From Nitrospirota bacterium (GTDB taxonomy: Bacteria; Nitrospirota; UBA9217): a stretch of DNA of 39,748 nt. The position numbers and the translations under genes are program-made. The DNA lies in contig JAKAHZ010000017.1 in the NCBI GenBank assembly GCA_021814615.1, positions 1-39,748 of the forward strand, in the 5' to 3' direction. The notes beneath the pieces were generated by a model. The model was given only the letters and a program-made list of their open reading frames with translations, was not told the origin of the DNA and did not search any database. This document shows positions 6,297 to 34,582 of this stretch, one piece after another; positions within the stretch are counted from its first letter, which is position 1; every line of letters starts with the position of its first letter.

Positions 6297-6373
6297 AAGC
6301 CACGAAGACGCCAAGCACGAAGAACTTCTCCTTTGAAATGTCCTTTTAGTGTCTTCGCGCCTTTGTGGTGAAA
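6297..6373. repeat. Dispersed palindromic intergenic repeat, copy A
   Basis: Left arm aaGCCACGAAGACGCCAAGCACGAAG; right arm GTGTCTTCGCGCCTTTGTGGTG is an imperfect reverse complement. Confidence 0.7.
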
Positions 6374-14184: not shown

Positions 14185-14201
14185 TTTCCGGGAGTTCATT
14201 G

Positions 14202-14336
14202 ATGAAGTCGTAAAAAGTCGATTATCACCACGGAGACACTGAGGACACTGAAAAAGTCATACACTCTACAAATTGCTTTTCTCTGTGTCTCTGTGTCTCT
14301 GCGTTAGATTTTGAATTTTTACGAGTCCATCTTCAT
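14202..14336. repeat. Dispersed palindromic intergenic repeat, copy B
   Basis: ATGAAGTCGTAAAAAGTC...CACCACGGAGACACTGAGGACACTG versus reverse complement of TTTTCTCTGTGTCTCTGTGTCTCTGCG...TTTTTACGAGTCCATCTTCAT. Confidence 0.8.
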
Positions 14337-14353
14337 TCAAGGAGTATTTTTTT

Positions 14354-21234: not shown

Positions 21235-21245
21235 AACGACACATA

Positions 21246-21330
21246 GCCGGGGGAGCCGTACGGCTGAGAGCCCTTGATCGAGGGCGACCCTTGGAACCTG
21301 ATCCGGGTAGTGCCGGCGTAGGGAAGGCGA
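21246..21330 (+). promoter_or_regulatory. TPP (THI-box) riboswitch
   Basis: GGGGGAGCCGTACGGCTGAGAG...GACCCTTGGAACCTGATCCGGGTAGTGCCGGCGTAGGGAAGGCGA matches the THI-box conserved segments; upstream of thi genes. Confidence 0.95.
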
Positions 21331-21356
21331 GCTTACAAGTCAATGAATGTCACAGG

Positions 21357-21413: not shown

Positions 21414-21452
21414 CTCGCGCAGAGCCGCAAAGAACGCAGAGAAAGCAACTGC
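21414..21452. repeat. Half-copy of the dispersed intergenic repeat, copy C
   Basis: cgcgcagagccgcaaagaacgcagagaaagcaact. Confidence 0.5.
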
Positions 21453-21457
21453 ACCAT

Positions 21458-21658
21458 ATGAATATCTTCGTAAACGGCCAACAACGGTCTGTTCCCGACG
21501 GTCTGACGGTGAGCGGCCTGTTGTTGCATCTCGAGATCAAGCCGGAGCGCGTTGCCGTGGAGATCAACGAGGAGATCGTGCGCAAGACGACCTATGCCGA
21601 TGCCCTTGTGAAGGAGAACGACCGGGTCGAGGTGGTGCAGTTCATGGGGGGCGGATAA
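21458..21658 (+). CDS. thiS: Sulfur carrier protein ThiS
   Basis: MNIFVNGQQRSVPDGLTVSGLLLHLEI...VEVVQFMGGG; C-terminal GG. Confidence 0.92.
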   Translation: MNIFVNGQQRSVPDGLTVSGLLLHLEIKPERVAVEINEEIVRKTTYADALVKENDRVEVVQFMGGG

Positions 21659-21728
21659 GGCTGACACGGCGACATGGCGACAAGGTGAGCGGGAAAACCG
21701 TCGTCGTCATTTTTCAGGAGGTGACTGC

Positions 21729-22082
21729 ATGGAGAAAAAAGCGTTCCTGAAACACTGGTCCAAGCTGAAGCCGAATCAGAAGCTCGTTCCAAAACCGGTG
21801 AAGTACACGCACGAAGGCAGCACCTATGCCGAGGACGGGATCAGGATCACGGGCAGCAGGAAGTTCGTGAACAGCGTGTTGTCGCGGCTGAAGGATATGC
21901 TGGCGCACGACAACGACGAGACGCGGCTCCAGGTCGTGTATCAGCGCAGCACGGACCGGGAGAGCGGGAAGACCCTGGCTTCATACAATTGCTACGTCCA
22001 GGTGCATGCACGGGGCGGAGTCAAGAAGACAGACAAGGCGAGCGGGCGACAAGGGGACAAGGTGATAATGAGGCTGCGGTGA
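21729..22082 (+). CDS. Conserved-looking hypothetical protein between thiS and thiG
   Basis: SD AGGAGG before ATG; MEKKAFLKHWSKLKPNQKLVPKPVKYTHEGSTYAEDGIRITGSRKFVNSVLSRLKDMLAHDNDETRLQVVYQRSTDRESGKTLASYNCYVQVHARGG; family not recognised. Confidence 0.7.
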   Translation: MEKKAFLKHWSKLKPNQKLVPKPVKYTHEGSTYAEDGIRITGSRKFVNSVLSRLKDMLAHDNDETRLQVVYQRSTDRESGKTLASYNCYVQVHARGGVKKTDKASGRQGDKVIMRLR

Positions 22083-22241
22083 CGCGGAGACGCGGGGAAA
22101 AAGTCGAACAAGAAACAATCGAAGGAATAACGGCATTCACCGCGAAGGCGCAAAGGAAGCGAAGGAAACAGAATCGGGGCATAGAGGCAACGATATTGCG
22201 AGAGAAGAAGGACGTGGTTTTTTTCGTGCCTTCGTGAGAGA
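22076..22241. repeat. Dispersed intergenic repeat, copy D (composite)
   Basis: gcggtgacgcggagacgcgg and attcaccgcgaaggcgcaaaggaagcgaagg, with distal arm ttttttcgtgccttcgtgag. Confidence 0.55.
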
Positions 22242-23045: not shown

Positions 23046-23137
23046 ACTTTTGACACTGAAAAGTCTATGAGAGGGGCTAAGAGGACACTGACTAATTCTG
23101 CTCTTTAATAGATTCTTCAGTGTCCTCAGTGTCTAAG
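23046..23137. repeat. Dispersed palindromic intergenic repeat, copy E (thiG-thiE)
   Basis: AGGACACTGA (23082-23091) versus TCAGTGTCCT (23117-23126), with extended imperfect arms. Confidence 0.65.
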
Positions 23138-26196: not shown

Positions 26197-26964
26197 ATGA
26201 TCAAAACACTATCCATCGCAGGCTCCGATCCCTCCGGCGGCGCGGGAATCCAGGCTGATCTCAAGGTATTCCAGTCCCTGGGCGCCTTCGGCATGGCCGT
26301 GCCGGCGGCGCTTACGGTCCAGAACAGCCGCGGCGTCTCGGCGACCTACCCGGTCTCGCCGCTGGTCATCAAGGAGCAGTTCGACGCCCTGCTGTCCGAT
26401 GTGCGGCCCGATGCGGTCAAAACCGGCATGCTCCTGACCAGGGAAGCGGTAACCGAGGTAGCCCGCGCCGTGGCCCGCTACCGCGTGAGAAACCTCATCA
26501 TCGATCCCGTGCTGCGATCGAGTTCCGGAAAGATGCTGCTCAAGCCCGAAGCTGTTGCTGCGCTCAAGAAGAACCTCCTGCCCCTGGCCTTGATCGTGAT
26601 GCCGAACATCCCCGAGACGGAGATCCTGTCGGGAAGGACGATCAAGTCGGAAGAGGACATGGATTTCGCGGCAGGCAAGCTGCTTGCCTTCGGCCCCCAG
26701 TACGTGCTGATCAAAGGAGGCCACCGTGCCGGGCCTGCCGTGGATACGCTCTATGGCGGAAAAACGGTTTTTAGCTTTTCCACAAAACGCATGCGCGGCG
26801 AGTTTCACGGCACCGGCTGCGTGCTTTCCGCCGCCATAACCGTGTTTATAGCACAGGGAATGGCTGTGGAAAAGGCTGTGGAAAAGGGAAAACAGGTTGT
26901 GGAAAAAATGTTGAAGAAGACGGCGCGGGTAGGCAGGAGCAGGACGAAGTATTTTCAGTTCTAG
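26197..26964 (+). CDS. thiD: Hydroxymethylpyrimidine/phosphomethylpyrimidine kinase ThiD
   Basis: LSIAGSDPSGGAGIQADLKVFQSLGAFGMAVPAALTVQNS, MPNIPETEIL, FHGTGCVLSAAIT. Confidence 0.95.
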   Translation: MIKTLSIAGSDPSGGAGIQADLKVFQSLGAFGMAVPAALTVQNSRGVSATYPVSPLVIKEQFDALLSDVRPDAVKTGMLLTREAVTEVARAVARYRVRNLIIDPVLRSSSGKMLLKPEAVAALKKNLLPLALIVMPNIPETEILSGRTIKSEEDMDFAAGKLLAFGPQYVLIKGGHRAGPAVDTLYGGKTVFSFSTKRMRGEFHGTGCVLSAAITVFIAQGMAVEKAVEKGKQVVEKMLKKTARVGRSRTKYFQF

Positions 26965-26974
26965 TGCCAATCTG

Positions 26975-27072
26975 CTCTCACGAAACCACGAAGACACGAG
27001 AAAAAGCGCTGAGAATCACCCCTCGCGAAGCTGCGACGAATTACGCTGAGAAGCGTTCCGCGGTGAAATAAT
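26975..27072. repeat. Dispersed intergenic repeat, copy F (left arm clear, right arm eroded)
   Basis: ctctcacgaaaccacgaagacacgagaaaaagcg; distal ttccgcggtgaaataa. Confidence 0.55.
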
Positions 27073-27114
27073 CCATTATGTTTGCAGTGATGCATTTCGA
27101 AAAACGGAGGACCC

Positions 27115-27822
27115 ATGCGGCCTGACGGCAGAAAATCCGATGAGCTACGGAAGCTCAGGATCACCAGGAATTACCTCAAGAACGCCGAAGGCTCGGTCCT
27201 GATCCAGATGGGCGATACCTGGGTCATCTGCTCAGCCACGGTGGAGAACTCGGTCCCCCCGTTCCTGAAGGGCAAAGGGAAAGGGTGGGTCACCGCGGAA
27301 TACGCCATGCTGCCCCGGTCATCGGCCCAGCGCATCCAGCGCGAGCGCGCCAAGATCGGCGGACGGACGCATGAGATCCAGCGACTTATCGGCAGGGCGC
27401 TCCGGTCCGTGGTGGACATGAATGCCCTGGGTGAGCGGTCTGTGCTGATCGACTGCGACGTGGTGCAGGCCGACGGCGGCACGCGCACCGCATCGATCAC
27501 CGGCGCCTACATCGCGCTCGTGGATGCCCTGCGCCACGCCCGGAAACAGGGATTGATAGCGAACGTCCCGGTGCTGGACCACCTTGCCGCGGTGAGCGTG
27601 GGCATCGTTGACGGGAAACCGCTCCTCGACCTTTGTTATACCGAGGATTCGACGGCTGAAGTGGACATGAACCTGGTCATGACCGGCAAGGGCGGCATCG
27701 TCGAGATCCAGGGCACTGCCGAGGGAGAACCTTTTACCAAGGCGCAGCTGGCGAAGATGCTCGCGTTGGGGGAAAAGGGGATCAAGGCGCTCATTGAAAA
27801 GCAGAAAGCCGTGTTGAAATAG
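27115..27822 (+). CDS. rph: Ribonuclease PH
   Basis: [44 protein letters not shown]...[19 protein letters not shown]. Confidence 0.97.
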
Positions 27823-27829
27823 AATAAAA

Positions 27830-28060
27830 ACCTTCACCACGAAGGTCACGAAGCACACGAAGGAATGCTGGCGTGGAGAAAGCAGACTTCTCGTACAGGC
27901 TCATCTGATGAGAATCATCCCGAGTGAAGCGAAGAACCTGATCTGAATCAGTAAGCGAGATTCTTCATTCCCGCAGATTGATAAATATGAGCGATACTTC
28001 GACGTTACACTTCTCTGCCTGATTTCTTCGTGAACTTCGTGGTCTTCGTGGTAAAATTCT
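27830..28060. repeat. Dispersed palindromic intergenic repeat, copy G (long spacer)
   Basis: Left ACCTTCACCACGAAGGTCACGAAGCACACGAAGGA; right GATTTCTTCGTGAACTTCGTGGTCTTCGTGGTAAAATTCT. Confidence 0.75.
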
Positions 28061-28094
28061 GTTTTCCGGCTCTGATTCCATCTCGAACATTCCC

Positions 28095-28661
28095 ATGATC
28101 GCTTTCTGGACCTCCCTTGCATTCGTCGTTCTCGCCGAAATGGGCGACAAGACCCAGCTCCTGGCCATGGCCTTCGCAACGCGCATGCGGTGGCAGACCG
28201 TGATGGGGGGCGTCTTCGTCGCAACGGCGGCGAATCATTTCCTGGCGGTCCTGGCGGGCAATTATCTGACCGCGCTCGTGCCGCTGCTGTACATCAAGAT
28301 CGCCGCCGCGGTTTCCTTCATTCTCTTCGGCCTTTGGACGATCAAGGGGGATACGCTGGATGACGAGGACAAACGGTTCAACTTCAGCCCTTTCTGGACC
28401 GTTACGGTGGCGTTTTTCATCGCAGAGATGGGGGACAAGACCCAGCTTGCTACCGTCGCCCTCGCCGCGGACTTCCATGCCGTCCTCCCCGTCTGGATGG
28501 GCACCACCACGGGCATGCTGATCGCCGACGCCATCGGCATCATCCTGGGCATTGTCCTGCACAAAAGGCTGCCGGAAAAGCAGATCAAGTGGTTTGCTGC
28601 GCTGGTCTTTATCGGATTCGGCGTCTGGGGAATGTACGAGGCGCTGGCGGGGAGGGGATGA
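28095..28661 (+). CDS. TMEM165/GDT1 (UPF0016) family cation transporter
   Basis: Two EMGDKTQ motifs (LAEMGDKTQLLAMAF and IAEMGDKTQLATVAL) in a polytopic membrane protein. Confidence 0.93.
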   Translation: MIAFWTSLAFVVLAEMGDKTQLLAMAFATRMRWQTVMGGVFVATAANHFLAVLAGNYLTALVPLLYIKIAAAVSFILFGLWTIKGDTLDDEDKRFNFSPFWTVTVAFFIAEMGDKTQLATVALAADFHAVLPVWMGTTTGMLIADAIGIILGIVLHKRLPEKQIKWFAALVFIGFGVWGMYEALAGRG

Positions 28662-34495: not shown

Positions 34496-34582
34496 CTTTG
34501 CCGCAAAGACGCCAAGACACGAAGGAACGGACAGGAATAATGCAGATTATACTTCGCGTCTTCGTGACTTCGTGGCGGAATA
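34496..34582. repeat. Dispersed palindromic intergenic repeat, copy H (lptF-lptG)
   Basis: Left CTTTGCCGCAAAGACGCCAAGACACGAAGGA; right TTCGCGTCTTCGTGACTTCGTGGCGGAAT. Confidence 0.75.

Follow-up and report, generated by a model that had tools for sequence, protein, structure and literature searches.

Several described repeat systems resemble the elements analyzed here. REP/REPIN sequences with their RAYT genes and the TIR-RAYT elements ("TIRtrons") (Di Nocera et al., 2013, PMC3733652) share with the repeats of the window, i.e., the whole analyzed stretch of 39,748 nucleotides from a Nitrospirota bacterium, a dispersed, intergenic and palindromic nature, a high copy number, and a small ORF that is repeat-flanked in few copies. 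They differ by the fold of the partner protein (Y1 HUH versus PD-(D/E)XK here); furthermore, the arms of our repeats comprise about three tandem DNA words of 7 letters, and the Y1 genes are not flanked by them. The GTAG/CGTC tags defining the two REP superfamilies were not seen by eye at the window copies or at the inspected hairpins of the home genome. Intervening sequences of 23S rRNA with an S23/IVP four-helix-bundle ORF, e.g., in Coxiella (PMC4990558), are reported to be located in rRNA helices. They are selfish inserts of about 0.4–0.5 kb with an ORF of about 120 aa, like the elements studied here, and their four-helix-bundle relatives found in this study also possess inverted arms. However, our elements lie between genes and have a nuclease as partner ORF. 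The Thiomargarita hupL MITEs linked to YhgA (PD-(D/E)XK_2) genes (PMC4853749) were likewise proposed as MITEs of a parent with a PD-(D/E)XK nuclease, but show a 19-bp inverted repeat, 10-bp direct repeats and another nuclease family, with no tandem-word arms reported. Finally, the TAACTGA heptamer repeats of Beggiatoaceae (MacGregor, 2015, PMC4679880) are intergenic tandem words scattered across phyla and adjoining start codons, with a period of 7 as found here for the words at four-helix-bundle genes. They differ in being reported as direct repeats, with almost no inverted partner and no associated gene. No description of an element combining word arms with a GxxExxY gene was found in the open-access PMC literature. 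Judged from this literature the element appears undescribed so far, and no priority is claimed.

The earlier note on this DNA had proposed a dispersed family of imperfect palindromic repeats at no fewer than eight sites, all of them intergenic (Table 1). The family is real and far above chance. Copies were counted by pattern searches of the home genome (G000; 3.49 Mb, 211 contigs) and of 250 kb of its sequence. Using CCACGAAGN{1,3}CACGAAG (CCACGAAG-N1-3-CACGAAG) as pattern, 72 matches were found in the home genome and 0 for the reversed control. The relaxed pattern CCACNRAG-N1-3-CACNRAG, representing two tandem words, yielded 247 matches versus 2 for its reversed form. Within the 250 kb, 204 merged arms were obtained. 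Neighbouring arms faced inward (+..-) in 52 pairs and outward in 7, with an interior of mostly 28–37 nt for the inward-facing pairs. In gene-less hairpins, complementarity stopped sharply two letters outside the first word. At two places of the home genome hairpins were amplified in tandem: C194:8814-9256 contains four copies spaced by 142 bp, and C118:11222-11809 contains five at a distance of about 114 bp. The word string also gave an apparent match to an eDNA study (PMC8438044).

Six of the eight window sites folded better than dinucleotide-shuffled controls and can form a stem (z -2.2 to -5.7; -3.1 for the 14202 copy), compared to -0.24 ± 1.2 for random windows. The remaining two sites did not: the degenerate site at 26975 scored +0.3, and 21414-21452 (z -0.1) is a single partnerless arm directly upstream of thiS. 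All sites lie between genes as proposed, with a few edges overlapping an ORF end or alternative start by some bases. The flanking genes encode thioredoxin, a redoxin, ThiS, ThiG, ThiE, a ThiD-like kinase, RNase PH, a GDT1-like protein and LptF/LptG-like proteins, with three sites in gaps adjoining thiS, thiG and thiE. TGA words were found at 23046 and AG words at all other sites. The arms of the 23046 site are related to those of a GxxExxY element of the GxGF type (L067). Three CRCNRAG words per arm, inverted and with matched spacing, were found at 27830 and 34496; the core of the 14202 copy contains shorter or imperfect words, and 21414 one arm only. No Rfam covariance model matched the repeats; a TPP riboswitch and a tRNA were the only matches in the window. 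The riboswitch (21239-21342) lies upstream of thiS and is followed by a terminator-like hairpin and the lone word arm before the start codon. Near thiS and thiG, tandem words of the GACAAGG type (21657-21688 and 22026-22065) resemble those forming the arms at one four-helix-bundle locus (L060).

Table 1. Positions of word-arm repeats and of the TIR-MITE shell in the window (z, folding score relative to dinucleotide-shuffled controls).
Positions	Strand	Feature	Context
6297..6373		Word-arm hairpin, CACGAAG/CGCCAAG words	Gap of two convergent genes, z -3.3
14195..14200	+	Target-site duplication TTCATT, left copy, 6 bp	
14201..14331		TIR-MITE shell, 131 bp, ends GATGAAGTCGTAAAAAGTC / GAATTTTTACGAGTCCATC	Word-arm hairpin core (14228-14303) inside
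14228..14251	+	Left three-word arm of 14202 core hairpin, CCACGGAG-A-CACTGAG-GA-CACTGA	
14281..14303	-	Right arm of 14202 core hairpin, CTCTGTG-T-CTCTGTG-T-CTCTGCG	
14332..14337	+	Target-site duplication TTCATT, right copy	
21418..21441	+	Lone three-word arm CGCAGAG-C-CGCAAAG-AA-CGCAGAG	After TPP riboswitch/terminator, ahead of thiS start (21458)
22076..22241		Degenerate word-arm element	Upstream of thiG, z -2.2
23046..23137		Word-arm hairpin, GACACTGA (TGA) class	Between thiG and thiE, z -2.8
26975..27072		Degenerate word-arm element	Gap of thiD-like kinase and RNase PH genes
27830..28060		Word-arm hairpin, CACGAAG words, period 9	Gap of RNase PH and GDT1-like genes, z -5.7
34496..34582		Word-arm hairpin	Gap separating two LptF/LptG-like genes, z -2.2

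Such repeats were presumed to accompany GxxExxY and four-helix-bundle (23S-IVS) genes, and this assumption was then tested. The home genome contains six full GxxExxY genes (PF13366, "PD-(D/E)XK nuclease superfamily"; also TIGR04256), about five PF05635 and five Y1 genes. Its GxxExxY and four-helix-bundle genes sit between inverted word arms, while the Y1 genes do not. Next to these, 80 named GxxExxY loci were taken from a scan of GTDB genomes, regardless of their flanks. Inverted arms scoring at least 30 flanked 57 of the 80 loci, versus 0 of 67 with flanks 800 nt further out. The loci belong to more than 10 bacterial phyla (Hydrogenedentota, Desulfobacterota, Verrucomicrobiota, Planctomycetota, Acidobacteriota, Chloroflexota, Elusimicrobiota, Bacteroidota, Pseudomonadota, Cloacimonadota and others). 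Archaeal GxxExxY loci came from two MAGs (Methanothrix, Altarchaeum). Since many loci derive from MAGs, single taxon assignments may be wrong. For the home phylum, arms scoring at least 28 were found at 20 of 23 loci versus 0 of 22 controls. Arm-bracketed GxxExxY genes were also present in a finished Planctomycetales chromosome, in Thiobacillus and Flavobacterium, and in plasmid records of Gemmatirosa and Bacteroides finegoldii, the latter with a textbook element between radA and the next gene. Only eight plasmid records hold the element. Carriage by phages was rejected, as a search of 50,697 phage records gave 0 matches, and none was confirmed in IMG/VR.

Among 50 GxxExxY sequences E73 and K75 were invariant and D63 was conserved in at least 90%. 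The AlphaFold2 model was confident (pLDDT 95) and gave weak matches in the PDB (best E 0.005), of which the top ones have the PD-(D/E)XK fold or belong to its relatives (Cas4, lambda exonuclease, tRNA-splicing endonuclease, Hjc, R2 endonuclease). The ORF is under purifying selection, with a dN/dS of about 0.13–0.18 for the two pairs with computable dS; the other pairs were saturated. We know of no activity of a GxxExxY protein. The statement of the earlier note that no transposase is linked to the repeats holds true for the window, where none of the eight copies contains a GxxExxY ORF or a detectable remnant, but elsewhere in the genome and across phyla such arms enclose a candidate partner gene, the GxxExxY nuclease. 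Most gene-less hairpins have no interior sequence in common with each other or with GxxExxY. A decayed GxxExxY gene was found exactly between arms in one genome (G028:C44).

The two arms of one element change in step. In elements with CRCNRAG words (n = 60) an arm usually consists of three words 8–10 bp apart, with spacings of 8,8, 8,9, 9,9 or 9,10. The spacing starts identically in both arms of an element in 97% of cases, compared to 55% between elements. Variable word letters agree at 0.857 between the arms of one element versus 0.527 between elements (permutation p = 0.0002). Words also follow the protein. Using a rough and simple word count for class assignment, with two loci fitting neither class, GxGL proteins were found with RCNRAG words in 92 of 92 scored cases and GxGF proteins with GAT/TGA words in 12 of 12. 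On a protein tree of 109 rows the word class switches once, and both classes coexist in the home genome. The tie between clade and word class may in part be due to linked DNA having been inherited together. Mismatches between arms, read on the ORF strand, comprised 41 G.U, 58 A.C and 59 others. As no G.U bias was observed (p = 0.11), there was no sign of the stem being read as sense RNA.

Empty sites exist among the relatives. The gap at 27822-28095 is short and element-free in several of them, and G009 carries there an element with CGCAGAG words. The gap at 26964-27115 contains an arm-bounded insert in most relatives sampled, with different words in each. The GxxExxY element L067 fills one operon gap in G000, G009, G006, G001 and G008, whereas G007 has a decayed copy and G003 none, the latter being either a site that was never filled or the result of a clean loss. 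Some of these genomes have GACACTGAGGACACTGA-like and others GCCACGGAAGAGGCGGATA-like arms, but the arms are paired in each, imperfectly in G006. The association of repeat and gene was analyzed in 118 genomes of the phylum, with at least 8 arm matches defining a hairpin-rich genome. Hairpin-rich were 12 of 17 genomes with GxxExxY versus 4 of 101 without (p about 1e-9). The home family contributed 9 of these 12; after its removal the values were 3 of 8 versus 4 of 101 (p = 0.008). In the four genomes of the latter group no GxxExxY was detected despite at least 8 arm matches. Three genomes possess GxxExxY without CACNRAG arms, and at least some of them have other words. Four-helix-bundle and Y1/RAYT genes showed no association with hairpin-rich genomes in the same sample. 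In two related genomes (L174, L173) the intergenic gap contains a tiny GTAG-like hairpin AGTAGGCGCCTCYAGGCGAGG nested within the first arm word.

The 14202 copy had been described as the most symmetric one, with outer arms. These are indeed inverted; however, they are not part of the word-arm motif and represent terminal inverted repeats (TIRs) flanked by a duplicated target site. The stretch 14201-14331 is a TIR-MITE of 131 bp, because dispersed copies have the common ends GATGRANTCGTAA... (also written GATGRANTCGTAAAAAGTC) and are flanked by 6-bp direct repeats. The TIR GATGRAHTCGTAADAANTC was found at 58 ends in the home genome versus 0 in the control, and at 48 to 88 ends in three relatives. 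The 6-bp duplication was significant for 10 home-genome copies (offset-corrected permutation p = 0.0005). For 17 copies including those of relatives, at least 5 of 6 letters were equal in 14, compared to 7% expected (p = 1e-4). In relatives the shell encloses unrelated hairpins (CATTGCGAGGAGC...GATTGCTTCGCT or CATTCCCG...CGGGTATGAC), therefore shell and word arms are two separate things. At five loci of related genomes (L257, L259, L264, L268, L281) one shell was seen with three unrelated cores, as if hairpins had been swapped or captured.

Genes of the four-helix-bundle family (TIGR02436/PF05635) represent a sister class of the GxxExxY genes. Inverted arms were found at 25 of 28 loci versus 0 of 26 shifted controls, with words such as GGGGCGA, GGTGAAG, CAGCTGT and CGTGAAA. 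At loci L056-L060 and L209-L237 the word differs at nearly every locus. In small, hand-picked sets of arms the word period was mostly 7 for four-helix-bundle genes versus mostly 8–9 for GxxExxY genes. This difference between gene families points to a word period determined by the ORF product. However, four-helix-bundle genes show the same architecture with no known nuclease domain, which weakens the case for the ORF as the mover of the element.

Since the same arms bracket GxxExxY genes elsewhere, we regard it as probable that the window repeats belong, as gene-less members, to a family of small selfish elements with inverted repeats and a GxxExxY nuclease. This reading joins the observed arm-ORF-arm unit, arm covariation, tie of clade and word class, co-occurrence, and presence and absence among relatives with a mechanism of movement that we infer. 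A complete element measures about 0.45–0.55 kb and consists of an arm, the ORF, and the same arm inverted. Each arm contains about three tandem words ([TT]CACC-RCNRAG), 8–10 bp apart, and the ORF of about 120 codons encodes a minimal PD-(D/E)XK nuclease (GxxExxY, TIGR04256/PF13366). The nuclease may recognize the arms of its own element. As these remain paired despite changes of their letters, they would probably be recognized in the form of an extruded hairpin or cruciform. It might then cut at the arms, copying or moving the element, and gene-less hairpins would be moved in trans. At 14201-14331 a word-arm hairpin also forms the core of a distinct TIR-MITE, which generated a 6-bp target duplication and presumably used a DDE-type transposase. 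The proposal of a non-autonomous, MITE-like nature was supported, as gene-less hairpins have the same arms as gene-bearing elements, and TIRs and a 6-bp duplication are present at the 14202 copy.

That all repeats are classical MITEs of a DDE-type transposon, with TIRs, target duplications and a transposase encoded elsewhere, holds for the 14201-14331 copy together with its shell family, but is unlikely for the repeats as a whole. Neither the 72 gene-bearing elements nor the 39 other gene-less hairpins showed as sets a target duplication at a fixed offset, which makes the action of a standard DDE transposase on word-arm elements less likely. Moreover, the TIR shell encloses other cores in relatives, and no autonomous copy with paired shell TIRs 0.6–2.8 kb apart was found among the loci examined. 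Arms kept by selection as RNA or cis-regulatory signals (for termination, processing or translation), with GxxExxY as a passenger, would agree with sites adjoining stop or start codons and lying inside operons, with pairing kept as letters change, and with the translational signals proposed for the Beggiatoaceae heptamer repeats (PMC4679880). Nevertheless, the lacking G.U bias, elements missing or replaced at the same gap in relatives, and the joint occurrence of nuclease clade and word class make this explanation quite improbable.

An ORF-independent process might also make and homogenize inverted tandem-word arms, e.g., by template switching in quasi-palindromes, with small ORFs riding along. 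The very diverse words of four-helix-bundle genes within the same architecture and the orthologous arms of L067, which changed words together, fit this idea. On the other hand, the word period differs by gene family, though in small samples, words track the protein clade with both classes side by side in the home genome, and hairpins co-occur with GxxExxY only; we therefore consider it very unlikely. Even less credence is given to a REP/REPIN nature of the repeats with RAYT (Y1) transposases as movers. High copy number, palindromic structure, intergenic location, distribution across phyla and the presence of five Y1 genes in the genome would be compatible with it. However, the tag was not seen at inspected copies, none of the five Y1 genes is arm-flanked, and Y1 presence does not track the repeats across the 118 genomes (p = 0.39). 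RAYT was consequently rejected as partner gene, and the term "REP-like" of the earlier note is not supported in its strict sense.

Beyond the GxxExxY elements, a broader class spanning both domains is proposed tentatively, with somewhat less than even confidence. In this class a protein of about 120 aa (a PD-(D/E)XK-fold nuclease, or a four-helix bundle in the sister class) would read inverted tandem-word arms, the protein family would set their period, the arms would rewrite each other in step, many anonymous hairpins of environmental genomes would be gene-less offspring, and the class would not have been described before. Environmental genomes contain many small "conserved hypothetical" genes, including those for GxxExxY and four-helix-bundle proteins. 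If these two are the coding part of tiny inverted-repeat elements, this would account for both genes and for large numbers of unexplained intergenic hairpins common to distant phyla. It also raises the question how both arms change words and spacing in step. CAGTTA/TAACTG words resembling the TAACTGA repeats of Beggiatoaceae were found in the arms of one four-helix-bundle locus (L229), so the Beggiatoaceae repeats may be arms of four-helix-bundle elements.
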